Assembly (NCBI GenBank): GCA_009829735.1
Contig: CM020620.1
Span: 744,001 to 808,000 of the forward strand
Length of the DNA stretch: 64,000 nucleotides
Direction: 5' to 3'
Source of the DNA: Pyropia yezoensis
Taxonomy: Eukaryota > Rhodophyta > Bangiophyceae > Bangiales > Bangiaceae
The position numbers and the translations under genes were made by a program. The notes beneath the pieces were generated by a model, which was given only the letters and a program-made list of their open reading frames with translations, was not told the DNA's origin and did not search any database. Position 1 is the stretch's first letter. Each line of letters starts with the position of its first letter. Below are positions 2,490 to 43,575 of this stretch, in pieces.

Positions 2490-2852
2490 TGTAGCAATAT
2501 GGTTGTCCGTATTGTGACCCTAATATTAGGGGGGCTACTTCTAATCCTTAACTTCCAATTTGAGAGTCCGAGCTGGTCACGGTATCTATAAGTTACGTAT
2601 GACCAGAGGGACTTGCATCTTGGGGTGGAGGGTAGTTAGTAGTGTCTCCGAGGGTTTATAACGAGGGGGCCGGTGGCGAATCCACCGCCGGCCAAGGTAG
2701 AACAACAAACCCCTCCCATTTGGGCTCCCATCTTGGTCCCGTGGCTTGCGCTCCAAGGACAGCAACCTTGGCCTCCCGGTGACGTTGGTGCCGATCCCCC
2801 TTGGTGAGTGTTCCCTGAGAGTGGACGTGCGACGGATTCCTATTGTGCTACA
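2490..2852 (+). repeat. Element B 5' LTR (363 bp)
   Basis: It begins TGTAGCA and ends TGCTACA, giving 7-bp inverted ends with the usual TG..CA. It reads as identical to 12950-13312. A TTATAA box in the stretch around 2654-2661 is nearly symmetric, so it could serve either strand. Confidence 0.95.
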
Positions 2853-2871: not shown

Positions 2872-3077
2872 CGGGTTTCCGTCACCCTTGTGGTGACGCC
2901 GTCTTCGGCCCTGGCACACGGATAGGGATCCGGTCCTTTTCTTGTACTCGTGGTGTTGCGACCTGATCGATTGTGTTGAGCTTTTACCTGTGACTGTGAC
3001 CTACTGTTACTCTCCCCAATCTACCCCCTCGCTCTCTTATTCGTGGTGGTCGTTGCGTCGGTTGACTGATTGTGACT

Positions 3078-5261
3078 ATGTCTACCCAAGAGACGGGGAA
3101 CGTTCAAGATGACGGATCGGCGTCGACGCCGACTCCGGAGGTGACTACGGGAACCGGGATCGGGAACCCGATCGATAACATTGAGACGCCAATGCTTTCC
3201 GGTGCCGGATCGACGTTTGGCACGGCTCGGACGGCAGGAGGCGGGGGCCCGCCTCAACTGTCGTCGACCGACCTCACTCCGCCGCCTCCTTCACCAGGGG
3301 ATTCCCTGATGGCATCATTGGCCCGCATCGAGGCCCGGTTTTCCGGGCTCGACGCCCGTCAAGATCGGACGGAGGACGCAATGGCAGTGTTGATGTCAAC
3401 ACGGCACACGACGGGACCCCGTCGTGTTCCTCCCACACCGGTACGGTTCGAACCGGCCGGACTACTTTCGGAGTCCACCAGGGTCAATCCCGGGGTTGCT
3501 ACTCCTGGACAACCCCCGGACACAAGGGGGTATGGGTCCGACTCGTCGGCAGAGTTGGAACGGAGTCACACGGAGCGATACGCTCGGAGCACCCGAAGCG
3601 GACTCCGCGGACACGACCCGGCAGATACGTACGCCGGGGGAGAGTCGATTATTGGGGGAGGGGGTACCCTCTCGCAGTACCCCCACGACGAAGGAGGCCC
3701 GGCAACTCGGGTTCCCGAGGTGCCGACGCCTGAAGTACCATCTTCAGTGGTGGAAGCTATGACCGCGCAGGTAACTGCGAGCCTACTGAAGCGGATGGAG
3801 TCCGATGAGTTCGCTCATCAACTGGCTAAGCGACTGGATATCCAGGACGCTGACACGGAGATCGTCAACGAGGTCTTCCGGTCGGTTCTTACTCCGGAAC
3901 GTTATCGTTTGGAGGACCGCTCTACCACCGTATCGGAATCGATGCGTAATACGTCGCATCGGGCGATCCGCTCTATGCAGACCCTTATGAAGGGAGTCCC
4001 TATGTTCGGGGGGCCGAACGGACGCCCGTTGGCAGTCATCGGCTTCTTGACTAGCTTCAAGGCAGCCGCAGACAAGGCGCTCGTTAACGAGGGGCTGGCC
4101 CTGGAGATCCTCCCGTTCTTTGTTGATGAACGGGTGCGAGGCATTCTTCGCCAGGCATCCCCGATGCCGGGAATGAGGGTCGCGGCCACCCCCATGGATT
4201 ACCGTGGGATATTGAAGGAGCTGCTGAGCAGCTACCTCAGTGAGGACAAGTGCGAGGACCACTATCGGGCCCTTCGCACTGCCACCGCCCAGTCCTGGGA
4301 GGATGAGGAGATGTTTGGACGCCGGATCCAAGAGCTCGACTACGAGCTGGGGAAGCTCCTCGGAGAAGGGGAGCTACGGGCCATCCTGTTCGCAGGAGTA
4401 CCCAACTACGTGCGGATATCCGCACGGGGCGCCAACACGGCACGGACGAACTTCAGTCGACTGATGCATATGTGCAAGTCCCTAGGGGACGCCTACCGGG
4501 TTCTACACCCGGAGTGTGCCTTGGCCCCGAAGCCCAAGGGTGAGGGAGGCAAGCCCAGTCTTACCCCGGTACCGAGGCAAGAGAAGGTGGAACGTAAGGC
4601 CGCACCAGTACTGGTGGCGACCGAACATACCCCTATTGGTGAGGGTGACCCTCAAGTCGACCAACAGGGCCACCTGTTGCTACCGGCGACGCCGGTGATT
4701 GATGAACATGGTACGGTAGCGTACATCGCCCCGGCTGGAACCCAGTTCCAGGTCAACGAAGGAACGGGACGGCGCGTCCCGTATGTGCGGACTACGGGGT
4801 ACTCCCCGGTGACGGGTAACCCTCACCAACCCTTGCCAACATGGGCGGTGCGCACGGAGGCACCCCCGCAGATTGCGGGCCGACCCAACCGGTTGGGGGA
4901 GTCCATGTTCCGGTTGACCCAAGGACCCAAGGCCTACCAGGGAGCAGGCACTCGGGCGCCCGAGGGAGGCAACCGTAGCTACGGGGCTACCCCGATGCGA
5001 CCTCAAGGGGGTACCGGCACGTCCGGATGTATGTTGTGTGGGGATCCCCAGCACTGGGTGTCTTCCTGCCCACTCATCCCCGAGGAGTCTCGGCGGGCAG
5101 CGGCGCAACGCAAGGCATCCACCGGGGGGTATCCCCCCCGAGCACCCGGACCCGCACCGGGTAGGCAGCCAGCTCCAGGTGGAGTACTGGCCGTCGAGGG
5201 GGCACCTCCTCAGCCGGATGTCCCGGCGGACAGCACCCTACCAAGGGCGGGAAACGAGTAA
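3078..5261 (+). CDS. gag: Gag polyprotein of element B
   Basis: This encodes a 727-residue Gag, the structural protein of the virus-like particle. The ATG at 3078 is chosen; the frame is open slightly further upstream but with no earlier ATG. The N-terminal third is low-complexity and rich in Ser, Thr, Pro and Gly. A Ty3-type capsid region lies at about residues 310-480 (FLTSFKAAADKAL, EDHYRALRTATAQSWEDEE, FSRLMHMCKSLGDAYR). A CCHC zinc knuckle is at about residues 650-664 (CMLCGDPQHWVSSC; C-x2-C-x4-H-x4-C). The protein ends in AGNE-stop, and the codons GGA AAC form a -1 slippery site just before the stop. The gag of A is about 90% alike but broken, which supports selection on this copy's ancestors. 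Confidence 0.93.
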   Translation: MSTQETGNVQDDGSASTPTPEVTTGTGIGNPIDNIETPMLSGAGSTFGTARTAGGGGPPQLSSTDLTPPPPSPGDSLMASLARIEARFSGLDARQDRTEDAMAVLMSTRHTTGPRRVPPTPVRFEPAGLLSESTRVNPGVATPGQPPDTRGYGSDSSAELERSHTERYARSTRSGLRGHDPADTYAGGESIIGGGGTLSQYPHDEGGPATRVPEVPTPEVPSSVVEAMTAQVTASLLKRMESDEFAHQLAKRLDIQDADTEIVNEVFRSVLTPERYRLEDRSTTVSESMRNTSHRAIRSMQTLMKGVPMFGGPNGRPLAVIGFLTSFKAAADKALVNEGLALEILPFFVDERVRGILRQASPMPGMRVAATPMDYRGILKELLSSYLSEDKCEDHYRALRTATAQSWEDEEMFGRRIQELDYELGKLLGEGELRAILFAGVPNYVRISARGANTARTNFSRLMHMCKSLGDAYRVLHPECALAPKPKGEGGKPSLTPVPRQEKVERKAAPVLVATEHTPIGEGDPQVDQQGHLLLPATPVIDEHGTVAYIAPAGTQFQVNEGTGRRVPYVRTTGYSPVTGNPHQPLPTWAVRTEAPPQIAGRPNRLGESMFRLTQGPKAYQGAGTRAPEGGNRSYGATPMRPQGGTGTSGCMLCGDPQHWVSSCPLIPEESRRAAAQRKASTGGYPPRAPGPAPGRQPAPGGVLAVEGAPPQPDVPADSTLPRAGNE
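5249..5255 (+). promoter_or_regulatory. Putative -1 ribosomal frameshift heptamer GGGAAAC (gag/pol, element B)
   Basis: In the gag frame the codons are GCG GGA AAC GAG TAA, so the heptamer fits X XXY YYZ exactly. After a -1 slip the next codons are CGA GTA AGA GGA AGG ATG, and the frame stays open to the pol stop at 9436. The same heptamer at the same distance from the gag stop occurs in A, D and E. A stimulatory downstream hairpin was not worked out. Confidence 0.75.
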
Positions 5262-5269: not shown

Positions 5270-8200
5270 ATGACCGGGGGGCGCTGGGGTCACCCAAGCA
5301 AGCCACCCCGGAGTACCGCGGGGAAAGCCCCACGGAGAGCGCGGTTGAGCCGACGCCGCATCAACCCCCGGGTACACCTTCCGGCCCCGACGACACGGCG
5401 TCAGGGGATTGATGACCAACCTCCGAGGTTGGGAGGAGAGGACGGGAAGCCCCTTCACGTTGAACCAGACAAGGGCCCTTTTCAGGATGCCCGAGCTACA
5501 CCGGATATCGGTGTAGGACATGTGTTGTTTACCTTGGAGAACTTCAAGGTATCAGCCACACTGGGGGTTGACCCCCAGTCGACACGATCGTACTACCCTG
5601 TACTGGACACAGGGGCTGGACCCAACCTTATCCGGAAGGATACCCTCCCGGACAAGTGGCTTCCACGAGTCAGAGTGACTCGGGGACCCACCATCAAGGA
5701 CGCGAATGGTCGACTCATTCGTACGACCGCAGCGATGTCGCTGCAGGTTACCATCGGGGATCTCACCACGGAAGTTGACTTCCTGGTATGTGAAACGCTA
5801 TCGGTGCCCTGCATACTGGGGTGCACCTTCATCAACGTTCACATTGATGCAATCCGGCCAGGCCGGAGGACCGTCGAGCTTCAAGAAGCCGACGGGACGA
5901 AGCGAGGACACACGGCTATCGTCAGGGACCTGACGCTACAAGGAAGCCACGTTAACGTGGCTGAGGTGTACGCAAGCGTCGAGCCGAAGACACTTCGGTT
6001 GGCCAAGCGAACTCGCTTTGAGCCGTTGTCAGAGACAGTCCTCCCGGTTAACTGCGACCTCGCAGGCATCTGCAGAGTCCAGTCCAACCTACGGACGTAC
6101 AAGCGCCATGGGTTGACCATGGCCAACGGTCTCATAGACCTCCCAGCAGGAGGGTCGTCCCTCCTAGTGATGGCGAACTACCGCCGTAAGGCAGTCACCC
6201 TCCCGAAGGGAACTATCCTCGGGATTGCCGAACTCTACGAAGGAGATATCCTTACCCCTGATAAGGAAGGTCAAGTGGAACCACTTGAAGTACTGGCGGT
6301 CGCCGAGACCACCGAGCGACAGCAACCCGATGACGGGAAGCCTAACCCATCGGCGGCTCCGGCGGACCTGCCGCCAAAGGACCAAGAGGCCTTGAAGGCA
6401 CTGGCCGAGGCTGACCTCGACCACCTTCCCCCTTCGGTAGCCGAAGGGGTACGACGGATGCTAAGAAAGCATGACGTTATGTGGACAGGCGGGGCCTTGG
6501 GGACCATTGGGGCAACCCAACATCGTATAGACCTGGTACCAGGCGCACGACCCGCCCGCTCACAACCGCACCGAGCGGGACCTATGCAACGAGAGATCGT
6601 TGATGGAGAAGTGAAGAGGATGAGTGAAGCTAAGGTGATCCGACCTTCGATGTCGGAATGGGGTGCCCCAGTCGTTATTGTGCCGAAGAAGGATCAAACC
6701 CCTCGGTTTTGCATCGATTATCGACGCCTCAACTTGGTTACCAAGAAGGACTCATACCCTTTACCAAGGATGGATGAATGCATCGACTCCCTGGGGGAGG
6801 CTACGGTGTTTACCACCATCGACTGCAATGCCGGATACTGGCAGATCCCGGTGGCGGACGAGGATATCCCCAAGACGGCATTCGTCTGTCACAGTGGAGT
6901 GTACGAGTTCCTAAGGATGCCCTTCGGATTGTCCAACGCCCCCGCTACATTCCAGCGGGCTATCGACATCATACTGTCTGGGGTGAAGTGGCGTAACTGC
7001 CTAGTGTACCTCGATGACGTCATCGTCTTCTCGCGTAACATGGATGACCATGTACAACATGTTGACGAGGTACTCACCCTCTTGAGGAACGCCGGGGTAA
7101 CCCTGCGTCTGAAGAAGTGCGCCTTCTTCCAACAGACGGTCGAATATCTGGGCCACCAGATAACCCCTGGTAAACTAGGGGTACTCGAAGCCAATACCCG
7201 GGCACTCCGGGATGCCCGGTTCCCTAACACCCAGACGCAGCTCAAGAGCTTCCTGGGAATGTGCAATGTATACCGACGGTTCGTCAAGGACTTCGCTCGG
7301 ATAGCTAAACCGTTAACGGTTCTTACGAGCAGTACCTTACCCAAGGTACTCCAACCCCCTTCGCCTAGCGAAGAGGAGGCATTCGAGTCGCTGAAGCGAG
7401 CCCTACTAGCCCCACCCGTCCTTGCGTTACCGCATAGACGGGGTACCTTCGTCATCGATGTCGATGCGTGTGATACACAAGTGGGATGCACCCTGTTACA
7501 GGGAGAGACGTTGATCGGTACCGATAACGTTATCCCGGACCTACGTCCGGTAGGGTACTTCAGCCGGACACTCAACCCGGCTGAGCGGAACTATAGTGCC
7601 ACCGAGCGTGAATGCCTCGGAGTTATATGGGCAGTGCAACTGCTCCGTCCATACCTGGAGGGCTCCAGGTTCATCGTGAGGTCCGACCACGAACCCCTAC
7701 GATGGCTCCTCAACCTTGGTGACAAGGATTCCGATAGCCATGGGAGGCTAGCCCGATGGAGGCTGAAGATGGCCGAGCACGACTACCGCACGGTGTATAA
7801 GGCTGGGTCAACCCACCACCTCGGAGACGCGTTGTCTCGACTCGACACCCCGAGCGGGGATACCCGCCCGGTGGACGAGGACATCCCGGTAGTACCGGTG
7901 TGCATGGTAGGTAATGCTACCCAGGGTATGGTTGACCATACCATGGCACACCTTGCGTGCCCATTGACCCTCGCGGACTTCCGCGAGGCACAGGCCAACG
8001 ACGATGACTGTAGACGTCATCGTGCTAACCTCCTGGCCGGTACGGCCGGCATCTTCTCCGAGAACGAAGACGGACTCATATACCGGCGGGCACCCGCCGA
8101 TGGACGACATCAAGTCGTGGTTCCCGTGTCCTTACGGCAAGCCGTCATGGAACGAGAACATGAGAACCCTACAGCCGGACACCCGGGGGGTTCACGTATG

Positions 8201-9436
8201 TTCGCAGCAATGCGAAGGTTCTTCTACTGGCCAGCAATGGCCGTCGACGTGGTCGACCACGTAAGGGGATGCCACCCCTGTGCGCGTAACCGCATGAGTC
8301 TACATAGGCAGGCGTCTGCCATGAAGCTATTCCCACCCGATGGGCCCAACGAGCAAGTCGCTATCGACATACTCGGGCCACTTCCGGTAACGGAAGAAGG
8401 GAACAGGTACATCCTGGTCATGTCTGACCGATTCACCAAGCTGTCACGAGCGGCAGCCATCCCGAATGAAACGGCATACACGATTATGAACGCAGTGGTT
8501 GACCACTGGATCAGTGCATACGGAGTCATGAAGCAACTCCTCTCCGATAACGGAGCAAACCTTACGTCGGCATTCTGCACTAAGGTCCTGGGCATGTTCG
8601 GTATCGAACCACGTCGGGCATCCGACTACCACCCGCAGTCCAACGGGCAGGTGGAGCGGTTCAACCGCACCATCGTAAAGATGCTACAGTGCTACGTGGC
8701 CGAGCACACGAACACGTGGGACAGGCTTCTGTCCGTACTCACCCTGGCATACAATGCCAGGCCACATCGGAGCACAAACATTGCTCCGCTGGAGTGGGTC
8801 ATGCCACTAGGCGTCGGTAACCTGACGCTGCCACCCGGCAGGTGCACTCGGTATGATACACCGAAGGGCCGACCCGCCGAACGCATCCACCTAGCTTGGT
8901 TGGCCAAGCTATCGTGGATGATTCCTAAGCTCAAGGGTGCCCTTGACAGAACACAACTTCGGTATAAGAAGAACTTCGACGCCCGACTACGGGTGCGCAA
9001 CGCAACCCTGGTAACAGGTGACTGGGTCTATATCAGACACCAGAAGTTCCGAGGGAACAAGCTTATGCAACCGGTCAAGGGACCGTACCAGATCCTCCAC
9101 AGAGATGACCACTCTGTTATCTTACACTCCGATACGGAGATCCAACGCATCAGTATGAATGATGTCACACCTGCTCCGAAGCCGGAACAGCCTCAGTTGG
9201 TACGGGCTGGGTTGCTACATGAAGCTCTTACAACCCACCGGTCGGATGACCCGGTGGGACCGGATGGGATTCCATACCAAGTAGAGAGCGTGGTCGGACA
9301 CACCGACCCGGACATACCAGGACCCTGGTACGTCAAGGTTATGTGGGTCGGATACGACTCACCCACCTGGGAACAGGCGGCGAATATACCCCGCCAACTC
9401 CTCATGCCGTACATGAGGCAACGACGCCTACTGTAA
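5270..9436 (+). CDS. pol: Pol polyprotein of element B (protease, RT, RNase H, integrase, chromodomain-like)
   Basis: The 1388-residue frame from the ATG at 5270 is open back to the slippery site at 5255. Aspartic protease: VLDTGAGPN near residue 111. Reverse transcriptase: RFCIDYRRLN, FGLSNAPATFQ and catalytic YLDD near residue 580. RNase H: FVIDVDACDTQVG and YSATERECLGV. Integrase: HHCC zinc region at about 963-1004 (EHENPTAGHP, CHPCARNR), with D near 1033, D near 1093 (LLSDNGAN) and E near 1128 (NGQVERFNRT). The C-terminus (about 1337-1380) has WYVKVMWVGYDSPTWEQ, a chromodomain-like signature, placing the element among chromoviruses. It overlaps no other gene and faces the antisense ORF tail to tail. 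All catalytic residues I could check are present, so this copy could be active. Confidence 0.95.
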   Translation: MTGGRWGHPSKPPRSTAGKAPRRARLSRRRINPRVHLPAPTTRRQGIDDQPPRLGGEDGKPLHVEPDKGPFQDARATPDIGVGHVLFTLENFKVSATLGVDPQSTRSYYPVLDTGAGPNLIRKDTLPDKWLPRVRVTRGPTIKDANGRLIRTTAAMSLQVTIGDLTTEVDFLVCETLSVPCILGCTFINVHIDAIRPGRRTVELQEADGTKRGHTAIVRDLTLQGSHVNVAEVYASVEPKTLRLAKRTRFEPLSETVLPVNCDLAGICRVQSNLRTYKRHGLTMANGLIDLPAGGSSLLVMANYRRKAVTLPKGTILGIAELYEGDILTPDKEGQVEPLEVLAVAETTERQQPDDGKPNPSAAPADLPPKDQEALKALAEADLDHLPPSVAEGVRRMLRKHDVMWTGGALGTIGATQHRIDLVPGARPARSQPHRAGPMQREIVDGEVKRMSEAKVIRPSMSEWGAPVVIVPKKDQTPRFCIDYRRLNLVTKKDSYPLPRMDECIDSLGEATVFTTIDCNAGYWQIPVADEDIPKTAFVCHSGVYEFLRMPFGLSNAPATFQRAIDIILSGVKWRNCLVYLDDVIVFSRNMDDHVQHVDEVLTLLRNAGVTLRLKKCAFFQQTVEYLGHQITPGKLGVLEANTRALRDARFPNTQTQLKSFLGMCNVYRRFVKDFARIAKPLTVLTSSTLPKVLQPPSPSEEEAFESLKRALLAPPVLALPHRRGTFVIDVDACDTQVGCTLLQGETLIGTDNVIPDLRPVGYFSRTLNPAERNYSATERECLGVIWAVQLLRPYLEGSRFIVRSDHEPLRWLLNLGDKDSDSHGRLARWRLKMAEHDYRTVYKAGSTHHLGDALSRLDTPSGDTRPVDEDIPVVPVCMVGNATQGMVDHTMAHLACPLTLADFREAQANDDDCRRHRANLLAGTAGIFSENEDGLIYRRAPADGRHQVVVPVSLRQAVMEREHENPTAGHPGGSRMFAAMRRFFYWPAMAVDVVDHVRGCHPCARNRMSLHRQASAMKLFPPDGPNEQVAIDILGPLPVTEEGNRYILVMSDRFTKLSRAAAIPNETAYTIMNAVVDHWISAYGVMKQLLSDNGANLTSAFCTKVLGMFGIEPRRASDYHPQSNGQVERFNRTIVKMLQCYVAEHTNTWDRLLSVLTLAYNARPHRSTNIAPLEWVMPLGVGNLTLPPGRCTRYDTPKGRPAERIHLAWLAKLSWMIPKLKGALDRTQLRYKKNFDARLRVRNATLVTGDWVYIRHQKFRGNKLMQPVKGPYQILHRDDHSVILHSDTEIQRISMNDVTPAPKPEQPQLVRAGLLHEALTTHRSDDPVGPDGIPYQVESVVGHTDPDIPGPWYVKVMWVGYDSPTWEQAANIPRQLLMPYMRQRRLL

Positions 9437-9916: not shown

Positions 9917-12364
9917 TCAGTGGGTAGACCCACTGCCCGAGGGAGGCCACTCACGCGTAAGCGCGTAGACCTCCGTGCTCCACCGGTCGGCAACGTCACG
10001 ACGGTCGACCACCCGAGTTACCTCGGTGCATAGCTGGACGAGGGTGCTGCAGCCAGCCTCCACGTCCTCCAGAGCTTTCTGGAGGCGGTCCAGCACGCCA
10101 CCGAAGCAACGCGCGGACCCAACCAGCGCAGCACCTGGGGGGATATCCCCCCAGCTAACAGAGAGATCCCCACGCATTGCGCGGGTAACAAGGGCGTCAA
10201 CGCCCTCATACCAGAGACGGGGACCCCCGTCATGTAGGACAGGGGCGGGAGGTGACACTGGCGCAGCCAGAGGAGCCACAGGAGCCGACACGGCTACCAC
10301 CGGAGCCGGTGGCACTTGATACGAGGCCCGGTAGGACCCTACCGAAGGGGCTCCACCGTAACCACGGCGGTACTCCGCCCGACGACGGGACACCTCACGC
10401 TCCCCACCCACAGAGCCCCACTCTCGGGGACGACGGCCAACCGCCGCCGGCATCGGGTTACCGAACCACGGAGCAAGGACCTGAAGAGGGTCATGGATAA
10501 CCATGGGAATACCCAGGTCAGCAACAGCCTCGGTGGACGCCCACCCATGGCAACTAGGCTCACCCGGCTGAGTACGCCGGACACGCAACGAGTGACGAGG
10601 CAAGGGGGAAGCCCCAGCCTGCGGGTCCCGGTACGGGGGAAGGGCCAACACCCCAGCCCAGTTCACGGCATCGTGAACAGCCAGCAGGGCTTCGAACTCC
10701 CGGGCCAACCCGGTCTTGGCAGCTATCAGATCCACGCCCAACTGCGCGATGTGCCGACGGACACCCGTCGGAAGATGAAACAGACGACCCTGCCGGCGGA
10801 CGGACAGCAAGAAGGATGAAGCCTGCCCGAGGGTAACCTCAAGGGTGAAGGTACCCTGCAACGGGTGGACCGGTCGCGAGGCCAACACACTCCCGAAGTA
10901 GCGAAGACAGGAGCCGGTGTCTAACCGGAAAGCAGGGGCGGGTTCCCACCCCTCCTGCCATAGCGGCGGGCGCACGGGAGTGTATACCGGAGCACGACCG
11001 TCGCCGGTCTGCAACGCACACGTTATATCCGTGCGGAACACATCCGCCATGACACCATGGTTACGTCGCCAACTCGACGCCGACTTCAACCCCGCCATGG
11101 GCGGGTAGGGAGCCGTCAACGACAGATACGGGGGTACCCCCGGGTAGTAGTCAAAGTCGGGATACCGACCGGTACGGCTCACCGTCTCCCCAAACGCAAC
11201 CGGCTCCGCCGCCGCCGCAATCCCCCGAGCACTAGCCGGGTAGTCAATCTCCCGCGGCAACGCGGGGGCAATCAAGTCGCAGACCCCGAAGTTGGGGTCG
11301 AGGTAGACCTCACCCCGTCCCACCCGGGTGCGCCAGAGCTGCGCATGCCGGTCGTCCGGCTGACTCAGGATCCAATGGTGTTCCACCCGGACCGCGTTCG
11401 GCTGGTTGACCAGCCGCACCAACTCCCGCTCCCAGCACGGGTCCACCTTGACGCGCCGGGAGGATTCTCCACGGGGATGCACCAGGTGGAAGTCCACCCG
11501 CATACGCCCATCGGACTCCATCGACTCTTGCACCGTGAGGCCTCGAACCCGAGCCACCAAGTCGGACACCGACATGGCGGGTTGACCCGCCGCCACGGCG
11601 ACGCCGCCACCCAACGGGGCAACCCGGGCAGGACCAGGAAGAATCGGGGGCGCCGGGGGACGCACCACCGGCAGAGGGGCCGACGTCGGAGATGGACGAG
11701 GCCGAGGAGGAAGAAGAAGGGCGGGCGCCCGCCCGGAGTAACTCCCGGTGTCAACCGCCATGGGAGAAGGAGCGTCTTGACCGCTCGACGCCCGCGGCAC
11801 CGCAGGTACGGCACCGGCGCCGGCGCCACCCGTCGGCGTAGCCCCCGCCTCGGAAGGGGAAGGCACTTGGACAGCCTCCGGAGCCGGAGCCCCGGCCGTG
11901 CGGACACCCGCACCGTCTTGACCCGCCGCACCGGGTGTCGCACCGCCACCACCACCCGCGTCAACGTCGGGACCGCCTCGAGGAGTCACCGCCCGGACAC
12001 CCGGACCACCTTGACCAGCCGGAGTCGGCTGCGGGTCGCGACCTCCGCCGCAGGGCGGACCATCTTGAGGTACCTGCGGTGAGCCGGCACCGGCACCAGG
12101 CCCCATCCGGGCAGCCGGCAGAGAGGGGGTAGAAGCCGCCACGCGCGGTTGACCGCCGGGTTGACCTCCGGCCGACGGCACCGTCGTGCCGCTGCACACG
12201 GACGACAGTCCTCCGGCCGACAGACGGACGGACACCGCAGGCCCGTCGTCGTCAGACGAGCTCACCCCGTAACGCGCGGCGTCGGGACCGACAGGCGCGT
12301 CGTCCTCCATCTCCTCCCCGATCAGGAGGTCTTCCTCCTCTTCAAGCACCTGGGGATAGGACAT
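9917..12364 (-). CDS. Antisense accessory ORF of element B, unknown function
   Basis: I do not recognise this protein. It is encoded opposite to gag-pol, between pol and the 3' LTR. From the ATG at 12364 (MSYPQVLEEEEDLL) it is 815 residues; an ATG at 12646 would add 94 residues of Arg/Trp/Gly-rich sequence that looks like leader. Residues 1-60 are acidic, about 60-260 are Pro/Gly/Ala-rich and probably disordered, and a well-mixed, probably folded part runs from about 270 to 630. A Pro/Ala linker and a helical C-terminal block (VDALVTRAMRG to WSTEVYALTREW) follow. The frame is open over 2.4 kb. Elements D and E carry related antisense frames: compare HIAQLGVDLIAA here with VDKLTVDFLC in E and LEQLTPQLVAE in D. 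The 3' LTR at 12950 is the likely place for its promoter. Confidence 0.75.
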   Translation of the reverse strand: MSYPQVLEEEEDLLIGEEMEDDAPVGPDAARYGVSSSDDDGPAVSVRLSAGGLSSVCSGTTVPSAGGQPGGQPRVAASTPSLPAARMGPGAGAGSPQVPQDGPPCGGGRDPQPTPAGQGGPGVRAVTPRGGPDVDAGGGGGATPGAAGQDGAGVRTAGAPAPEAVQVPSPSEAGATPTGGAGAGAVPAVPRASSGQDAPSPMAVDTGSYSGRAPALLLPPRPRPSPTSAPLPVVRPPAPPILPGPARVAPLGGGVAVAAGQPAMSVSDLVARVRGLTVQESMESDGRMRVDFHLVHPRGESSRRVKVDPCWERELVRLVNQPNAVRVEHHWILSQPDDRHAQLWRTRVGRGEVYLDPNFGVCDLIAPALPREIDYPASARGIAAAAEPVAFGETVSRTGRYPDFDYYPGVPPYLSLTAPYPPMAGLKSASSWRRNHGVMADVFRTDITCALQTGDGRAPVYTPVRPPLWQEGWEPAPAFRLDTGSCLRYFGSVLASRPVHPLQGTFTLEVTLGQASSFLLSVRRQGRLFHLPTGVRRHIAQLGVDLIAAKTGLAREFEALLAVHDAVNWAGVLALPPYRDPQAGASPLPRHSLRVRRTQPGEPSCHGWASTEAVADLGIPMVIHDPLQVLAPWFGNPMPAAVGRRPREWGSVGGEREVSRRRAEYRRGYGGAPSVGSYRASYQVPPAPVVAVSAPVAPLAAPVSPPAPVLHDGGPRLWYEGVDALVTRAMRGDLSVSWGDIPPGAALVGSARCFGGVLDRLQKALEDVEAGCSTLVQLCTEVTRVVDRRDVADRWSTEVYALTREWPPSGSGSTH

Positions 12365-12937
12365 GATAACGGGTGCGGAGTCCCCCGCGCCCACAAGCCG
12401 TCGACGGCTACAACCCGGTACGGTGGGATAACCGGGACGAGCCAGGGAAGCGCGGACACCCGCGCTTATGACCACAAACGGCCACGAGAAGCGCCGCAGG
12501 CACGCGGGTCGACCCGCGCCCCACGGGGCTACGACCGCGCTCCACCCAGGCACCTGGGCGGGACGGGGCCACACCCACACACGGGGTAAGTAAGGGGGGT
12601 CACCCCCAACCGCCCCCGCGCAACGCGGGCAGCCCCCGCCCCCCACTCAATCGTCCACACGAGAGGGGCCCCCCTACCACCAGGCACCTGGTGGCGGATC
12701 CGCTTGCACCACCCCTCGGAAAGGGGGGGCGCGAACAGCAACCCGCATCGGGAAATTAACGGTCCGGAAAACGGATCGTGTGTGTACCACACAAAGGGGG
12801 GCACCCCCCTCGGACAACCTCGAAAAGGGGTGTCTGTCGCGACGGGGCGCAAAGCCCCACCCGACGGGTAAACAGTCACGCGACCCACTTACATTCGGTA
12901 ACCCGAATGCAACTCGACCCGAGGACGGGCCGAATCT
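12365..12937. other. Leader of the antisense ORF / 3' untranslated region of element B
   Basis: This stretch lies between the conservative antisense start and the polypurine tract. The antisense frame is open from 12364 back to 12646. Several short inverted repeats are visible, for example around 12684-12694 (CAGGCACCTGG). No sense coding frame is supported. Confidence 0.5.
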
Positions 12938-12947
12938 AAGGGGAAGA
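12938..12947 (+). promoter_or_regulatory. Polypurine tract of element B
   Basis: AAGGGGAAGA lies two bases before the 3' LTR, the expected place for the plus-strand primer of reverse transcription. Confidence 0.8.
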
Positions 12948-12949
12948 TA

Positions 12950-13312
12950 TGTAGCAATATGGTTGTCCGTATTGTGACCCTAATATTAGGGGGGCTACTT
13001 CTAATCCTTAACTTCCAATTTGAGAGTCCGAGCTGGTCACGGTATCTATAAGTTACGTATGACCAGAGGGACTTGCATCTTGGGGTGGAGGGTAGTTAGT
13101 AGTGTCTCCGAGGGTTTATAACGAGGGGGCCGGTGGCGAATCCACCGCCGGCCAAGGTAGAACAACAAACCCCTCCCATTTGGGCTCCCATCTTGGTCCC
13201 GTGGCTTGCGCTCCAAGGACAGCAACCTTGGCCTCCCGGTGACGTTGGTGCCGATCCCCCTTGGTGAGTGTTCCCTGAGAGTGGACGTGCGACGGATTCC
13301 TATTGTGCTACA
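12950..13312 (+). repeat. Element B 3' LTR (363 bp)
   Basis: It reads as identical to 2490-2852 and is followed by the target duplication CATCG. On the minus strand it contains TATAAAC (complement of 13114-13120), which would drive transcription towards the antisense ORF. A second copy at 19053-19415 is an assembly duplicate. Confidence 0.95.
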
Positions 13313-25298: not shown

Positions 25299-25872
25299 TG
25301 TGGTATAAAACTCGATCCTCTCAGACACGTGTCAATATCCCTCGGGGGAAAGGGACAGGTAACGCAGAAAGGGGAACTACGAGAATGGTATGCCTGTTGC
25401 CTCACGTGCCTGCTCGCAGGGCAAACAGATACGCACGGTAGTGCACACGGGGAAGAGGAAAGCAAACGCGCAGTTGTCTTTTTCCCTGAGGGCGCGGGCC
25501 GAGGGCGCCTCGCTGTCCCTCTTAACGTGCATCTGGGGGAACCCCGGCACGTTGGCCCGGTAGCCCCCCCCCATAACCCCGAGTGGCCCCGACCCGAGTC
25601 TAACCTCGTCAGGTCGGGGGCCACTATCACTACTAATTCTATTCCCACTCACTAATCTCACACTCAAATTCTCTCAAATCAAGTCCCTCACAAATATGCA
25701 AAAACACATCAGAAATCCCTCTCTCGCGTGTGGATAGCGTAGTCCACCGCATCCCAGTGCCGGGCACGGGCCACGGCCGCCAACCATCGCCACACGGCGG
25801 GCGTGTTCTGGCACCTGGTGCCCTCTGGTTGCAGTCCCGGGTCGGCGCCAAGTCGGGGCCAGGGATGCTACA
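25299..25872 (-). repeat. Element E 3' LTR (574 bp)
   Basis: On the plus strand it runs from TGTGGTATAAAAC to GGGATGCTACA and reads as identical to 36279-36852. A TATAAAA box at 25304-25310 lies on the plus strand, that is in the antisense direction, pointing at the antisense ORF 670 bp away. Confidence 0.95.
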
Positions 25873-25974: not shown

Positions 25975-27108
25975 ATGGTCTGGATTGTCGACAAGTTGAC
26001 CGTCGACTTCCTGTGCAGCCAGGACGAGGAGTACAAGGAGCTCTTCCAGGCGATGATCGACTTCCGGCGTCTGGTGCCGGTGCATGACCGGAACTTCTTG
26101 AACGCGATTGCCGACCAGAACCGCCCGCGTCGGGATGGCTTCGGTTGGGCGCAGGTGGTCTACCAGTCTTCTCCGGCCAAGGTGCAGCTGGCGACGCCGC
26201 TTCCGGCGTGGCCGCAGCTAGGTAGCTTTCCTGCTCCGGCCGCCCTTGATCTTCTGCCAGTTGGACCGCCGGTGCAGGAGTCGGGATGGGCCGCGGCGGT
26301 CGGTCGGGCGTCTGCGGCGGCTCCGCTTCCTCCGGTTGCCCCTGTCGCCCCGGTCGCCTCGCCTGAACCGTCACCGGCACGTCCGCGCCCTGTTCCGGCT
26401 GTGCCAGTACTTCAAGCTCCTCCGGCACCGCGCTTGTCTGCGGCGAGTCTGGGAGTGGCCGTGCGGTCGCCGATTACTCCGGCCGCTCTACCCCGGACGC
26501 CTTCTTCCAACGCCGGCGGCGCTGTGCCTCCGCTGGAGTTGGGTACTCCGGTCTCGGGGGCCGTTGTGGACCGTCCAGTAGTGTCATCCTCGGGCCGGTT
26601 CGAGATTCCGGCGCCGACTCTGCGCCTCACCCGCTTCCGGGTGCCTGACTGGTACCTGAACCAAGGTGGTCCAACATGCGACCAGTACGACGTCGGCATG
26701 ATTGAAGACCAGCTGGGTCGTCTTCCGGTGCAGGTTGAAGGCGTCGGGTCCTCTCTGGTGCTGGGTACTTACGCCAGCGTCTTGAACGACGTGGTCGACC
26801 GGGTGTTTGCTTGCGCGGACAGCGGCCAGATGTCGAACAACCCGGTGGTTGGCGAACTTCTGGCGACTTTGACGCGGCATGGCCTGGCCCAGCAGTGGTC
26901 AGAGACCTTCACGGGCTTCCAGCGGCGCCGACGGACATATCTGGATGAGCGGGAGCCACCGGCAACTACTGGTACTACTCCGATGGCGTCATACCGGGAT
27001 GCGCCGCGTCCACCGCACTACGTCATCCCGTCTTCCTCCGGTTCCCGTCGTACCGCGGAGGCAACGCCGGAGGACACTCCCGCGGCTCAGCGTCCGCGCC
27101 GGGAGTAG
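25975..27108 (+). CDS. Antisense accessory ORF of element E, unknown function
   Basis: This 377-residue frame runs opposite to gag-pol between the 3' LTR and the end of pol. I do not recognise the protein. Residues 1-65 are well mixed and helical-looking (VDKLTVDFLCSQDEEYKELF). About 75-210 is Pro/Ala/Val-rich linker, about 210-325 a second folded block (DWYLNQGGPTCDQYDVGMIEDQ without any long gap, then a leucine-rich segment ending in GLAQQWSETFTGFQ), and the tail is Arg-rich. By eye the first block matches residues near 600 of the B antisense protein, and the second matches the B C-terminus (A-x-x-W-S-x-E/T). It lacks the long N-terminal part present in B and D. Its stop is 145 bp from the pol stop, tail to tail. 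Confidence 0.72.
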   Translation: MVWIVDKLTVDFLCSQDEEYKELFQAMIDFRRLVPVHDRNFLNAIADQNRPRRDGFGWAQVVYQSSPAKVQLATPLPAWPQLGSFPAPAALDLLPVGPPVQESGWAAAVGRASAAAPLPPVAPVAPVASPEPSPARPRPVPAVPVLQAPPAPRLSAASLGVAVRSPITPAALPRTPSSNAGGAVPPLELGTPVSGAVVDRPVVSSSGRFEIPAPTLRLTRFRVPDWYLNQGGPTCDQYDVGMIEDQLGRLPVQVEGVGSSLVLGTYASVLNDVVDRVFACADSGQMSNNPVVGELLATLTRHGLAQQWSETFTGFQRRRRTYLDEREPPATTGTTPMASYRDAPRPPHYVIPSSSGSRRTAEATPEDTPAAQRPRRE

Positions 27109-27253: not shown

Positions 27254-29858
27254 TCAATCCTCTTGTTCCGCATCCGTTGCGGGCGAGCTCGTCTCGTCCC
27301 GAGGGTCTTGGTTGGCCCCGTCCTCTTGGTCCTCCTCCGTGTCCGACTCCAGAATCTTGCCGGCTCTGGCCACTGGAGTGCCCTCGATCCCGTTCCGTCG
27401 CGTGTAGGCACAGACGTCCGCGATGGGTAGCCGGTTTGAGGGTTCCCATGTATCATCTGCTGGGTTAAAGCCGAACCAGCGTACTCGCAGGTACAGGCGT
27501 CCATCTCTCCAGGCATGGTCGACAAACTTGACGTAGACAAATTCCCGACCTTCTTCTTGGGATAGCCAGGGTATCGCAGTCCGCTTACGCCGGGTCAAGT
27601 CCCGTTGGCTTGGCGGTGGAGCTCGGGTGACATGGTCGCTGCTCACCCGGTACGGAGAGCCATCCACGTCTAGAAGGAAGGTCCAGCCATCCGTATTGAG
27701 AATCTCATAAGGTCCATCCGTCTTAGAGTCCAGCTTCCCCCGGGTCTTGCTATGGTTGTCCACAAAAACCCAGTCGCCACCACCCAGTTCCTTGTTCTTT
27801 TCCCGGACACCCTTGTCATAGTCCCGCTTGTATCGCTCCTGGGTCTTTGAAATTGACTCCTTGACTCTTGGGAGCAGGAGCTTTAGTTGTTCCAGGAACT
27901 CATCCTTTGCCTTGGGACCTGACTTCAGTGCAGGCTGGAGACCATCCGGTATTCTTTCCAGGGAGAAGTTGGTCAGCCGCCTCGGGGTGACAAAGTCGAG
28001 TGGAGCGACTCCCGTTGTCCGGTGAACTCGGGAGTTGTAGGCTAGAGTGAGGACAGCCAGGAGCTCGTCCCAGTCTTCTTGGTGCTCCTCCACGTAGTGC
28101 CGTAGCATGTCCACTAGGGTCCGATTGAATCGTTCCACCTGACCGTTCGTTTGAGGGTGGTACGTCGTGGTGTACAAGTTCTTGATGCCCATCAGGTCAC
28201 AGACTCCTTGGAAGAACAGGGATGCAAACTGGGGACCGTTGTCGGTTAAGACGGAGTCTGGAGGGCCGTAGGCAGCTATCCAGTACTCGCAGAAGGCCGA
28301 CGTGACATCCAGAGCCGTGATGGTTCTCAACGGGATTGCTCGAGTGAACTTGGAGAACCGGTCACAAATGATGAGCAGGTATATGTTGCCACTGGAGGTC
28401 TCAGGTAGGGGCCCCAGGATGTCCATGCTTAAGCTTGCAAAGGGCTCCGCCGCAGGGAATAGGCGTAGCTTAGAAGTCTTCTTCCTCTGGGACAACCGGT
28501 TCCTTGCACAAGAAATACAAGCCTCCAGGCACTTATGGACGTCACTGGCCATGGTTTCCCAGTAATAATGTCGTCTCATGGAAGCATACATCCGATTGAT
28601 ACCAGGATGCCCGGCCTGGGGAGACGAGTGCTCTAGGCGTAGGATGTCAGTCCGTAGGCTCCGGGGTACGTAGACTTGAGTTGCCCCATCGAAGGGTGAC
28701 ACCCGTACCAGGAGTCCGTCTGTAGACTCGGAGAAGCGACTGTTCCGGTTCAGGTCCATTTGGTGGCGAAGCTCCAAGCATTGAGGGTCCGTCAATTGTG
28801 CCTCCAGCATCCGGTGAATGGTTACCGGTTGATGAGCGTCAGGTGTCTCGTACAGGGGAGCGTGCCAGCCACGTCCGACATTCGGGAGGATGAAGCAAGG
28901 TATTTCCTCCGGGATAGGACCGGTATCGGCTGCAGGAGTCTCCAGCCTGGACATGGTGTCGGCGCAGTGGTGCTCCCTCCCTGCTCTGGTGCACACCTTG
29001 TACTTGAACTCCGAAAGGCGTAGGCGCCACCGGGCGACCCTTCCTTGACTGCTGTCCATGCATAGCAGCCACCTTAGACTGGCGTGGTCCGTCCGGATGA
29101 GGAACTCTTGTCCTTCAAGATATGGACGTAACAGGAAGCAAGCCCAGACGACCGCCAAGCACTCGCGCTCGGTCGTGGAATAGTTCTTCTCGGCTGGAGT
29201 CAAGACGCGACTGTAGTAGCCTATCGGGAGGAAGTGCCCATCAGGTTGCTGCTGGAGTAGTGAGCACCCCACCTGGACGCCACAGGCGTCAGTCTCCAGA
29301 ACAAACTGACCCTCCCGCTTGGGTAACGCCAGTACTGGAGTGGTGGTCAGGCGCTTCTTGAGCTCTTCGAAGGCTGCTGTCTGCTTCTCGTCGAACACCG
29401 GGAGTTGTGCTGGAAGCTTCTTGCTAGTAAGCTTGGTCAAGGGCCGGGCAATCAGAGCGTAGTCTCGTACGAACCGGCGGTAGACGTTGCACATACCCAG
29501 GAAGCTCTTGAGTTCCGTCTGGGTTTTAGGTTGCCGTGCATGCCGGAGGGCCTTGATGTTCTTCTCATTGACTCGGAGCTCCCCCGGACTCAGCACGTGC
29601 CCCAGATACTCCACCTCAGTCTCAAACAGGTGGCACTTCTCGGCCTTGAGGGTAACTCCAGCCTTGGACAGGAGGGCCAGGACCTCTCGAAGGTGCTCTA
29701 GGTGTTCCGCTGGGGTCTTGGAGAAAACAATGATGTCGTCCAGGTAGACCAAACATGTTCTCCACCTTAGCCCCGACAGGATGATGTCGATGGCTCTCTG
29801 GAAGGTTGCCGGAGCATTAGTGAGACCAAAAGGGAGACGCTTGCACCGGAACAGTCCC
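27254..29858 (-). CDS. pol: Element E pol, RT to chromodomain (contig-2 part)
   Basis: This is the reliable copy of the downstream two thirds of pol. It starts inside RT (LFRCKRLPFGLTNAPATFQ), with catalytic YLDDIIVFS near 29735. RNase H follows (FVLETDACGVQVG, YSTTERECLAVV), then the integrase HHCC region (LEHSSPQAGHPG, CISCARNR) and the DDE core (SMDILGPLP, LTDNGPQFAS, NGQVERFNRT). The C-terminal chromodomain reads VKFVDHAW, LRVRWFGFNPADDTWEP. The protein ends in an acidic Glu/Asp-rich tail with a stop at 27254. When joined at 29858/32822 to the upstream part, the length from the slippery site is 4095 bases, a multiple of three, so the frame is intact. Confidence 0.93.
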
Positions 29859-30358
29859 NNNNNNNNNNNNNNNNNNNNNNNNNNNNNNNNNNNNNNNNNN
29901 NNNNNNNNNNNNNNNNNNNNNNNNNNNNNNNNNNNNNNNNNNNNNNNNNNNNNNNNNNNNNNNNNNNNNNNNNNNNNNNNNNNNNNNNNNNNNNNNNNNN
30001 NNNNNNNNNNNNNNNNNNNNNNNNNNNNNNNNNNNNNNNNNNNNNNNNNNNNNNNNNNNNNNNNNNNNNNNNNNNNNNNNNNNNNNNNNNNNNNNNNNNN
30101 NNNNNNNNNNNNNNNNNNNNNNNNNNNNNNNNNNNNNNNNNNNNNNNNNNNNNNNNNNNNNNNNNNNNNNNNNNNNNNNNNNNNNNNNNNNNNNNNNNNN
30201 NNNNNNNNNNNNNNNNNNNNNNNNNNNNNNNNNNNNNNNNNNNNNNNNNNNNNNNNNNNNNNNNNNNNNNNNNNNNNNNNNNNNNNNNNNNNNNNNNNNN
30301 NNNNNNNNNNNNNNNNNNNNNNNNNNNNNNNNNNNNNNNNNNNNNNNNNNNNNNNNNN
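29859..30358. other. Second 500-N assembly gap, probably a false gap
   Basis: The left flank 27393-29858 and the right flank 30359-32822 are the same sequence (offset 2966 falling to 2964). The contigs overlap; nothing needs to be missing. Confidence 0.85.
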
Positions 30359-32822
30359 TTCCGTCGCGTGTAGGCACAGACGTCCGCGATGGGTAGCCGG
30401 TTTGAGGGTTCCCATGTATCATCTGCTGGGTTAAAGCCGAACCAGCGTACTCGCAGGTACAGGCGTCCATCTCTCCAGGCATGGTCGACAAACTTGACGT
30501 AGACAAATTTCCCGACCTTCTTCTTGGGATAGCCAGGGTATCGCAGTCCGCTTACGCCGGGTCAAGTCCCGTTGGCTTGGCGGTGGAGCTCGGGTGACAT
30601 GGTCGCTGCTCACCCGGTACGGAGAGCCATCCACGTCTAGAAGGAAGGTCCAGCCATCCGTATTGAGAATCTCATAAGGTCCATCCGTCTTAGAGTCCAG
30701 CTTCCCCCGGGTCTTGCTATGGTTGTCCACAAAAACCCAGTCGCCACCACCCAGTTCCTTGTTCTTTTCCCGGACACCCTTGTCATAGTCCGCTTGTATC
30801 GCTCCTGGGTCTTTGAAATTGACTCCTTGACTCTTGGGAGCAGGAGCTTTAGTTGTTCCAGGAACTCATCCTTTGCCTTGGACCTGACTTCAGTGCAGGC
30901 TGGAGACCATCCGGTATTCTTTCCAGGGAGAAGTTGGTCAGCCGCCTCGGGTGACAAAGTCGAGTGGAGCGACTCCCGTTGTCCGGTGAACTCGGGAGTT
31001 GTAGGCTAGAGTGAGGACAGCCAGGAGCTCGTCCCAGTCTTCTTGGTGCTCCTCCACGTAGTGCCGTAGCATGTCCACTAGGGTCCGATTGAATCGTTCC
31101 ACCTGACCGTTCGTTTGAGGTGGTACGTCGTGGTGTACAAGTTCTTGATGCCCATCAGGTCACAGACTCCTTGGAAGAACAGGGATGCAAACTGGGGACC
31201 GTTGTCGGTTAAGACGGAGTCTGGAGGGCCGTAGGCAGCTATCCAGTACTCGCAGAAGGCCGACGTGACATCCAGAGCCGTGATGGTTCTCAACGGGATT
31301 GCTCGAGTGAACTTGGAGAACCGGTCACAAATGATGAGCAGGTATATGTTGCCACTGGAGGTCTCAGGTAGGGGCCCCAGGATGTCCATGCTTAAGCTTG
31401 CAAAGGGCTCCGCCGCAGGGAATAGGCGTAGCTTAGAAGTCTTCTTCCTCTGGGACAACCGGTTCCTTGCACAAGAAATACAAGCCTCCAGGCACTTATG
31501 GACGTCACTGGCCATGGTTTCCCAGTAATAATGTCGTCTCATGGAAGCATACATCCGATTGATACCAGGATGCCCGGCCTGGGGAGACGAGTGCTCTAGG
31601 CGTAGGATGTCAGTCCGTAGGCTCCGGGGTACGTAGACTTGAGTTGCCCCATCGAAGGGTGACACCCGTACCAGGAGTCCGTCTGTAGACTCGGAGAAGC
31701 GACTGTTCCGGTTCAGGTCCATTTGGTGGCGAAGCTCCAAGCATTGAGGGTCCGTCAATTGTGCCTCCAGCATCCGGTGAATGGTTACCGGTTGATGAGC
31801 GTCAGGTGTCTCGTACAGGGGAGGCGTGCCAGCCACGTCCGACATTCGGGAGGATGAAGCAAGGTATTTCCTCCGGGATAGGACCGGTATCGGCTGCAGG
31901 AGTCTCCAGCCTGGACATGGTGTCGGCGCAGTGGTGCTCCCTCCCTGCTCTGGTGCACACCTTGTACTTGAACTCCGAAAGGCGTAGGCGCCACCGGGCG
32001 ACCCTTCCTTGACTGCTGTCCATGCATAGCAGCCACCTTAGACTGGCGTGGTCCGTCCGGATGAGGAACTCTTGTCCTTCAAGATATGGACGTAACAGGA
32101 AGCAAGCCCAGACGACCGCCAAGCACTCGCGCTCGGTCGTGGAATAGTTCTTCTCGGCTGGAGTCAAGACGCGACTGTAGTAGCCTATCGGGAGGAAGTG
32201 CCCATCAGGTTGCTGCTGGAGTAGTGAGCACCCCACCTGGACGCCACAGGCGTCAGTCTCCAGAACAAACTGACCCTCCCGCTTGGGTAACGCCAGTACT
32301 GGAGTGGTGGTCAGGCGCTTCTTGAGCTCTTCGAAGGCTGCTGTCTGCTTCTCGTCGAACACCGGGAGTTGTGCTGGAAGCTTCTTGCTAGTAAGCTTGG
32401 TCAAGGGCCGGGCAATCAGAGCGTAGTCTCGTACGAACCGGCGGTAGACGTTGCACATACCCAGGAAGCTCTTGAGTTCCGTCTGGGTTTTAGGTTGCCG
32501 TGCATGCCGGAGGGCCTTGATGTTCTTCTCATTGACTCGGAGCTCCCCCGGACTCAGCACGTGCCCCAGATACTCCACCTCAGTCTCAAACAGGTGGCAC
32601 TTCTCGGCCTTGAGGGTAACTCCAGCCTTGGACAGGAGGGCCAGGACCTCTCGAAGGTGCTCTAGGTGTTCCGCTGGGGTCTTGGAGAAAACAATGATGT
32701 CGTCCAGGTAGACCAAACATGTTCTCCACCTTAGCCCCGACAGGATGATGTCGATGGCTCTCTGGAAGGTTGCCGGAGCATTAGTGAGACCAAAAGGGAG
32801 ACGCTTGCACCGGAACAGTCCC
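30359..32822 (-). repeat. Duplicate of 27393-29858 (element E pol), error-rich contig end
   Basis: It is the same pol segment, but with single-base deletions or insertions in short runs near 30510, 30790, 30880, 30950, 31120 and 31823. These break the frame into pieces ending at 30431, 30637, 31078 and 31802. The intact version at 27254-29858 shows that these breaks are sequencing errors and not decay. Confidence 0.85.
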
Positions 32823-34318
32823 ATGTGGCACGTGAAGGTAGTCTTGTCCTTGTCCTCGTCAGCCAGAGGGATCTGCCAGTAACCGGCATTACAATCCAGC
32901 GTCGAGAAGAGAGTGGCATCACCAAGAAAGTCGAGGCAATCATCCATCCGGGGTATCGGGTATACATCCTTGACTGTCATCTCGTTCAGGCGTCTGTAGT
33001 CAACGCAGAAACGGAAGTGACCGCCAGGTTTCGGGACGACTACCACCGGGAAAGCCCACTCGCCATCAGACGGCTCGATAACATCCATCTTGAGCATCTT
33101 GTTAACCTGCTTCTCAATCTCATCCCGGCGATGAGGTCCAGCCCGGTATGGGTGCATGTGCACTGGTTTGGCATCTGGCTTGAGTTGAATCCGGTGTAGG
33201 GTGGCGTCCATCTTGCCCAGCTCTCCGGACCACAGATGCCGATGTTCCTGGAGAAGCTTCTCCAGTGCCTCCTTCAAGTCGAGAGGGACGTTTTCTTGGT
33301 TGACCTTCGGCATCCCGGGCGGTGCTTGTTCGGGCTTCGGAGTAGTACGGCCAGCCTGCTCTTGTTCCGGAGATACGTCTAAGGCCGTCAAGTTGGATGC
33401 CAGCTCTTGTTGCAGGTTGAAGAGGTCTTCCTTGCTCATAGCGCGGGCGGACCCCCGGTAAGGCTCTGCTGTACCAACTCGAGTGCCCTTGGCGAGGGTT
33501 ATTGGCTTCCGGCTCACGTTGACGATCAGCACCGAGAACGGGGTGTGCCTCTCCACCTTCTTGTGGTGTCCGTGGGCTAGGTATAATCGGTGTTTCGCCA
33601 GAAATTCCTTGCGTCCGTAGATCAGGCATTGACCTGCAGTCCGGGTCGTGACTTGAACCTTGGTCTCCGAGCGAGGAGGTAGGAGCACCGGTTTGATGAG
33701 GGTCAAGGTAGAGGGTGGGATGCGCTCCTTCTGGTTCTTGGCCACACGAACCTTGGTGTCCAGGTGCTCCAGCACTGGTGACACAAACCCATGGTTGAAC
33801 TGCACCTTTCCTTCTCCGGGTAGGATGCTCTTGACATGCTGCTTCTGGAAGTCCCAGCCTAGGATGAGGGGGACTGATAAGGTCTTGACTACTAGAAAGG
33901 GAAAAAGCATTGGTTCATTGTTGACATAGATGGCGACGGGAAGACGGCCAAGCGGTCGTAGGGTTTGACCTGATGCGTCTACAATCCGGGTCTTGGTAGG
34001 CGCTCTCCAGGCATGTCGACGCCAGCCCGGAGGTAACAGGTTCTCAGTGATGACGCTTGGTCCGGCTCCCGTGTCGACCACCGGCGTAACAGCTTGGGGG
34101 AGGCTATCCCCCACACGCATACGAGCATTAATCTTGAGGTTTTCCTTACGCAGGACGAGCAAGGTCCCCTTGAACAAACAGGGTGTCCAGGCGGCTACCG
34201 GTTGAGCAGGTAACTGCCGTCCTTTCTCCCGGCACGCAAGGGGAGAACAGGTAGAAGTACCCTGCCGTTGGAGATTCGGGAAGACACTTGGGGAGAGCGC
34301 CTGCCCTACTCGTTTCCC
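32823..34318 (-). CDS. pol: Element E pol, protease to RT fingers (contig-3 part)
   Basis: This is the upstream third of pol. From the slippery site (34312-34318) the -1 frame is open with no ATG until well inside, so expression by frameshifting is the simple reading. The aspartic protease has VVDTGAGPSVITE near 34070. The RT begins with a linker rich in Glu and Pro, then HMHPYRAGPHRRDEIEKQ, FRFCVDYRRLNE and STLDCNAGYWQIP. It joins the contig-2 part in RT without loss of frame once the overlap at the gap is collapsed. The combined product is about 1364 residues. Confidence 0.92.
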
Positions 34319-36274: not shown

Positions 36275-36278
36275 AATA

Positions 36279-36852
36279 TGTGGTATAAAACTCGATCCTC
36301 TCAGACACGTGTCAATATCCCTCGGGGGAAAGGGACAGGTAACGCAGAAAGGGGAACTACGAGAATGGTATGCCTGTTGCCTCACGTGCCTGCTCGCAGG
36401 GCAAACAGATACGCACGGTAGTGCACACGGGGAAGAGGAAAGCAAACGCGCAGTTGTCTTTTTCCCTGAGGGCGCGGGCCGAGGGCGCCTCGCTGTCCCT
36501 CTTAACGTGCATCTGGGGGAACCCCGGCACGTTGGCCCGGTAGCCCCCCCCCATAACCCCGAGTGGCCCCGACCCGAGTCTAACCTCGTCAGGTCGGGGG
36601 CCACTATCACTACTAATTCTATTCCCACTCACTAATCTCACACTCAAATTCTCTCAAATCAAGTCCCTCACAAATATGCAAAAACACATCAGAAATCCCT
36701 CTCTCGCGTGTGGATAGCGTAGTCCACCGCATCCCAGTGCCGGGCACGGGCCACGGCCGCCAACCATCGCCACACGGCGGGCGTGTTCTGGCACCTGGTG
36801 CCCTCTGGTTGCAGTCCCGGGTCGGCGCCAAGTCGGGGCCAGGGATGCTACA
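36279..36852 (-). repeat. Element E 5' LTR (574 bp)
   Basis: It reads as identical to 25299-25872 and is followed on the right by the target duplication ATGGT (36853-36857). The 5' leader between this LTR and the gag ATG (36067-36256) holds the PBS and nothing else I can name. Confidence 0.95.
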
Positions 36853-43489: not shown

Positions 43490-43575
43490 CGGTTGCCAAG
43501 TGGTTTGAGCGCGCCATTCCGCTTACTTCTCAAGGGCCCGGGTTCGATTCCGACTCTCCGATATCTACTTTTTCG
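43490..43575 (+). tRNA. tRNA-like sequence or tRNA pseudogene inside element D gag
   Basis: It has an A-box-like TTGCCAAGTGG at about 43494, a B-box GGTTCGATTCC at about 43540 and a TTTTT run at about 43568, spaced as in a tRNA gene. The T-stem and acceptor stem do not pair properly and no convincing anticodon arm forms, so it is either decayed, derived from a SINE, or a chance resemblance. Confidence 0.3.

Follow-up and report, generated by a model that had tools for sequence, protein, structure and literature searches.

The 64,000-nucleotide window of the Pyropia yezoensis genome analyzed here (assembly GCA_009829735.1, contig CM020620.1, positions 744,001 to 808,000) contains three long terminal repeat (LTR) retrotransposons, B, D and E, which, judged by their sequences, are ambisense: between pol and the 3' LTR, each family carries the frame of a predicted protein, of about 650-840 codons, that lies on the opposite strand and faces pol. 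The first-pass annotation had pointed out long frames opposite to gag-pol at this position, and they are present in all three elements, with 7 internal stops in that of D. Element B is bounded by a 5' LTR (2490..2852, plus strand, 363 bp, TGT...ACA) and a 3' LTR (12950..13312, plus strand) that are 100% identical and flanked on the outside by the 5-bp target duplication CATCG, indicating a recent insertion. A gag-like frame (3072..5261, plus strand) has a weak zinc knuckle (zf-CCHC_2, 13.4 bits, under the cut-off). It is followed by pol (5270..9436, plus strand), in which Pfam matches show the Ty3/Gypsy order of protease (25.2 bits, cut-off 28.2), reverse transcriptase (RT), RNase H and integrase. 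The terminal match to chromodomain PF00385 is weak both in B (13.2 bits) and in E (20.8 bits; cut-off 25.1). Convergent with pol and separated from it by 480 bp lies the antisense gene (9917..12364, minus strand, stop codon at 9917-9919), which would encode 815 amino acids (aa) from the ATG at 12364; purifying selection, the conserved ATG and mostly stop-free copies identify it as a gene. The mechanically delimited frame (9917-12646, minus strand) has 909 codons and begins with a GTG at 12646. The start appears better placed at ATG 12364, because this ATG is conserved and the frame upstream of it contains stops in some copies: an ATG occupies the aligned position in ten of the 12 B copies compared, an in-frame ATG lies 9 codons further upstream in L047, L051 is unaligned there, and stops directly precede the position in L049, L052 and L053. 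In all 14 B loci, pol is opposite in strand to the antisense frame.

The antisense genes of E and D are damaged in the window. That of E (25975..27108, plus strand) is a remnant of 377 aa comprising the C-terminal half; its 5' half was lost by an internal deletion relative to copy L012, in which the frame has 705 aa from its ATG, and frames longer than the remnant occur in other copies as well. The decayed gene of D (36853..38796, plus strand) has open relatives elsewhere in the genome. The genome (107.5 Mb in 11 contigs) was searched for further copies; the resulting lists contain the best-scoring matches and not a random sample, so that all counts are lower bounds and biased towards intact copies. 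Copies of B, D and E outside the window have antisense frames of about 650-900 aa. Among the matches listed, the match was free of stops in 53 of 55 scored B copies, in 107 of 109 scored E copies (for the 377-aa part) and in 148 of 150 scored D copies (for a 114-aa piece only). Open frames with a stop-to-stop length of 760-910 aa were frequent in these 109 E copies, and the commonest open frame in the 150 D copies had 724 aa.

Kinship of the three predicted proteins had been proposed by eye. In Smith-Waterman alignments tested against 300 shuffles that preserved local composition, B and D scored 124 (shuffle mean 64, maximum 101) and D and E scored 128 (mean 64, maximum 100), and in neither case did any of the 300 shuffles score as high. 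Profile comparison likewise linked B with D (probability 82%, E 1e-5) and D with E (probability 93%, E 4e-7). B and E by themselves were not significantly similar, as their score of 94 (shuffle mean 85) was matched by 54 of 300 shuffles, and their profiles gave a probability of 2% and an E-value of 0.02, yet across the same motif as the other pairs. The proposed relationship therefore holds for B-D and D-E, and the similarity between B and E can be demonstrated only through D as a link. The block that had been noted in all three proteins was confirmed, with HIAQLGVDLIAA in B, LEQLTPQLVAE in D and VDKLTVDFLC in E occupying the same alignment columns. A second block, A-x-x-W-S of B and E, does align but is not significant alone. 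The predicted proteins share a general make-up, with a variable N-terminal part rich in Pro, Gly, Ala and Arg, a conserved core around an L(F/W)xLP motif and C-terminal parts specific to each family.

Selection on the frame was estimated from 30 copies (15 of B, 9 of E and 6 of D) in 27 comparisons to the respective family reference, with DNA identities of 57-99.8%. The ratio of nonsynonymous to synonymous substitution rates (dN/dS, omega) was 0.11-0.67 in 26 of the 27 comparisons: 0.28-0.67 in 13 of 14 for B, 0.11-0.26 in 8 of 8 for E and 0.15-0.26 in 5 of 5 for D. The exception, B copy L002 with a ratio of 1.90, differs from the reference by 6 substitutions in all, and the ratio for the most distant B copy is rough, because its dS of 1.59 is close to saturation. 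When the observed substitutions were moved to random sites (300 replicates for each of 17 of the 27 pairs), this neutral null gave a mean omega of 0.78-0.99, and in all 17 pairs none of the 300 replicates was as low as the observed value. The three distant B pairs with L050, L051 and L047 showed no stop, whereas the null predicted 7.6-10.3. The other five reading frames contained 7-37 stop-bearing codons per comparison, those on the sense strand 7-36. As a control, omega was also determined for the sense-strand pol end of these B copies and was 0.09-0.25 in 13 of 13 comparisons, indicating that the predicted antisense protein is under constraint, though not as strongly as integrase. Constraint was strongest at B residues 421-540 (10745..11104, minus strand), which include the shared block around the LP motif. 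Here, the proportion of nonsynonymous differences (pN) was 0.15-0.16 and that of synonymous differences (pS) 0.59-0.66 in comparison to L047, with corresponding values of 0.07-0.12 and 0.42-0.47 for L050; this maximum was found in both windowed comparisons, and residues 361-600 as a whole were better conserved than the remainder only in the more distant one. None of the outcomes that the first-pass annotation had named as speaking against a conserved antisense protein was observed: profile similarity was detected, dN/dS and the neutral null point to purifying selection in all three families, and intact frames occur in many other copies of each family.

To find relatives, 5.8 billion proteins were searched with a profile, scoring being limited to the 7995 candidates that had the most words in common with the query. 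Ten of the scored candidates matched the B-type profile, namely five hypothetical proteins of Pyropia vietnamensis (42-58% identical to B and covering 46-100% of the query), four Logan proteins and one ENA protein. The Logan match P0009 is 99% identical to a divergent B subfamily of the P. yezoensis genome. With E as query, an ENA protein (99% identical) and a Logan relative (42% identical) were found; the latter probably comes from another species, because its best scored match in the P. yezoensis genome reached only 44%. A 2012 survey had detected no retrotransposon chromodomains in the Porphyra yezoensis data of that time (PMC3350952). In the RT region, the families B, D and E are 46-56% identical to each other. 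A tree of this region, comprising nine rows exclusively from this genome, with no outside reference and with the other loci being a small sample chosen by chromodomain score, placed B, D and E on one side of a branch (support 100/100) and six loci of other chromodomain elements, forming two deep groups, on the other. D and E were grouped together (88/92), which agrees with the stronger similarity of their antisense proteins. Five 3' regions of other chromodomain elements, of about 2.1 kb each, contained no relative of the antisense protein (best E 0.29). Two of the five had long unrelated antisense open stretches (305 and 406 codons); these overlap an LTR region of the D type or extend beyond the sequence shared with the sister copy. 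The sequence common to L067 and L068, and likewise that common to L069 and L070, stops 1.0-1.2 kb past the chromodomain, leaving too little room for such an antisense gene. Since the RT tree and the protein similarities agree and five other chromodomain loci gave no relative, the antisense gene was probably gained once, before the B, D and E lineages separated, and would then have been inherited along with pol.

Elements E and D are nested, and both are on the minus strand. E has a 3' LTR (25299..25872) and a 5' LTR (36279..36852) of 574 bp that are 100% identical, with the target duplication ATGGT. Its pol (27254..34177, minus strand; open frames and Pfam matches) is interrupted by an assembly gap with duplicated flanks, and its gag-like frame (34306..36066, minus strand; open frame and Pfam) has a weak zinc knuckle. 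E was inserted into D at the start codon of the D antisense gene (36853-36857). D is the older element, with LTRs that are 88% alike; a part of its pol from RT to the integrase zinc-binding domain (39946..41682, minus strand, Pfam) and an open frame where gag would be (43530..44330, minus strand) were recognized. Three E copies (L078, L083 and that of the window, 25299-26200) carry different internal deletions in the 5' half of this gene; their breakpoints overlap by about 6 to 12 bases, as template switching would give. B and E are nearly identical just inside the 5' LTR (2853-2885 in B; within 36246-36278 in E), with the sequence TTGGTGGAGCAGCAGGGGA, which is likely a common primer-binding site. 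Two gaps of 500 N (16631-17130 and 29859-30358) each have near-identical blocks directly adjoining them on both sides (window 11028-22731, 99.84% over 5.6 kb; 27393-32822, 99.76% over 2.5 kb), and for this reason a second B-type antisense frame (16563-18749) and the doubled pieces of E pol are probably assembly duplicates from unmerged contig ends. In another part of the window, positions 48001-58000 have a GC content of 78-86%, very long open frames on both strands and many imperfect repeats; a frame of 2040 aa lies mostly within this stretch.

We consider it highly probable, for the explanation taken as a whole, that B, D and E are ambisense elements with a selected antisense protein, which was probably gained once and would be expressed from an antisense transcript. 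This transcript would start within the element or its 3' LTR; it is needed, as every sense-strand frame is interrupted across the gene. For the protein itself, a function as nuclear accessory factor acting on the RNA or DNA of its own element, in transcription, RNA export or evasion of host silencing, is a tentative suggestion to which we give somewhat less than even chances. This suggestion is based on the layout, on the lack of membrane-like segments (the highest 19-residue hydropathy was 1.23-1.54 in B, D and E), on the strongly basic C-terminal tail of the D protein and on the analogy with plant antisense products, which excerpts of PMC7264820 describe as being located in the nucleus. Searches of Pfam, NCBIfam and PDB sequences with the antisense protein gave nothing above the cut-off. 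Both of two low-confidence structure models put helices around the LP motif. That a single ancient gain gave rise to a new family of minus-strand proteins, which is unrelated to plant antisense proteins, has diverged in step with pol and is required for the elements to succeed, and that ambisense LTR elements hence arose independently in at least plants, fungi and red algae, seems to us slightly more probable than the contrary.

Several observations weigh against this interpretation. The antisense gene is a prediction from sequence. The E copy in the window is recent, as its LTRs are identical, yet it lacks the 5' half of the gene, so that either the deletion occurred late or the protein is dispensable in cis. 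The copies used for dN/dS were chosen among the best-scoring matches, by which intact copies are over-represented, and still 6 of the 30 contain stops (1 of 15 in B, 2 of 9 in E and 3 of 6 in D). Avoidance of stops is not decisive by itself for the closer pairs, and L052, a B copy as distant as the three pairs without stops, has 2 stops and was outside the null test. The D copies L022 (2 stops, 3.0 expected) and L013 (7 stops, 6.1 expected) have about as many stops as the null predicts, which fits copies in decay. Constraint is weak in the N-terminal part, with pN of 0.38-0.46 and pS of 0.68-0.85 for B residues 1-240 compared to L047. Stretches of 12 residues with at least 6 basic ones are absent from E and occur once in B, indicating that nuclear targeting is not uniform across the families. 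Finally, the structure models are poor (mean pLDDT 39 and 45.5), and consequently no function can be claimed from the fold.

Common ancestry with TRP28 of the plant Retand elements, or with another known antisense gene, followed by divergence past recognition, would agree with the similar position and orientation and with the occurrence of TRP28 in antisense in 97% of Retand clusters, where its function is likewise unknown (excerpts of PMC11963269). We regard such an ancestry as unlikely, since the same excerpts describe TRP28 as confined to flowering plants and its model PF04195 was unmatched in Pfam scans and in a genome search, the controls of which did not exercise the plant family. The B and E proteins of the window gave no PF04195 match at E <= 1, and a wider set comprising D, E, two distant B copies, the ENA relative of B, a P. 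vietnamensis protein and the Logan relative of E gave none at E <= 5, although HMMER filters discard the majority of matches weaker than about E 0.1. It is quite improbable that the gene encodes an envelope-like protein or a structural component of the particle, even if the sense-strand genes that plant elements carry at this position include env-like ones (PMC7264820): the hydropathy maxima are too low, neither of the two metal-binding cysteine patterns tried was found, and BLASTP comparison with the gag and pol products of B and with gag of E gave no hit at E <= 1. Antisense RNA effects have been discussed for plant elements (PMC7264820), and the convergent layout makes duplex RNA possible, so that the antisense strand might act only as RNA, by pairing with genomic RNA and thereby tuning or silencing the element, the open frame being incidental. 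This would leave unexplained why nonsynonymous changes are far below the neutral null in this one frame in all three families, and we consider it very improbable as the sole function, whereas RNA and protein roles could coexist. That the frame is open by chance due to a GC content of 67% (10001-12000), or is constrained by a sense-strand gene such as the overlapping 341-aa frame at 11057-12082, is barely credible in view of the missing stops in the three distant B pairs and the stop-bearing codons in each sense-strand frame.

An antisense gene in this layout has precedents in other LTR elements, and the novelty claimed by the first-pass annotation therefore applies, within the range of the profile libraries and of the papers listed, to the protein family and not to the arrangement, which occurs in plants and a fungus. 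Antisense genes between pol and the 3' LTR are described for the plant elements Grande, RIRE2, Retand and PvRetro13 and for the fungal element Boty in excerpts of PMC7264820, and their origin and use have long been unclear (PMC7264820, PMC11963269). In the plant Tat/Retand elements (Retand, RIRE2 and Grande gene23; TRP28 = PF04195), a long antisense gene at this position is likewise kept in most copies. B, D and E share with the plant class the antisense position between pol and the 3' LTR and protein-like conservation in most listed copies. They differ by the red-algal host and by one unnamed protein core that is common to three families; in addition, Retand is not a chromovirus (PMC11963269), whereas B and E bear a weak chromodomain. 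Boty-like elements of Botrytis, compared by layout alone, also contain an extra antisense gene, brtn, in a fungal LTR element (PMC7264820, PMC8365987). Extra frames of Tekay chromoviruses, likened here by description only, resemble the antisense gene as accessory genes kept in a chromovirus lineage and are largely disordered with predicted nuclear localization, but lie 5' of gag-pol (excerpts of PMC11728184).

Among retroviruses, HTLV-1 encodes the antisense protein HBZ with a bZIP domain, likewise from the minus strand near the 3' LTR. Unlike the HBZ gene, the antisense gene of the algal elements is situated between pol and the LTR without overlapping a recognized sense gene, and the Pfam matches of the antisense proteins included neither a bZIP model nor any other domain above the cut-off. 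HTLV antisense genes are also mentioned in excerpts of PMC11963269. The matches listed in our literature search, which covered few subscription papers, contained no report of an antisense gene in a red-algal LTR element. Selection could be measured directly on the antisense frame thanks to the many copies, the three divergent types of element and the relatives found in a second species; the results point to a protein that has a genuine function and provide a defined core for expression and further study. In comparison to the known systems, the layout is familiar, the protein is apparently unrelated, the red-algal host group is new and selection has been measured on the frame, which suggests that coding on both strands evolved more than once in LTR retrotransposons.

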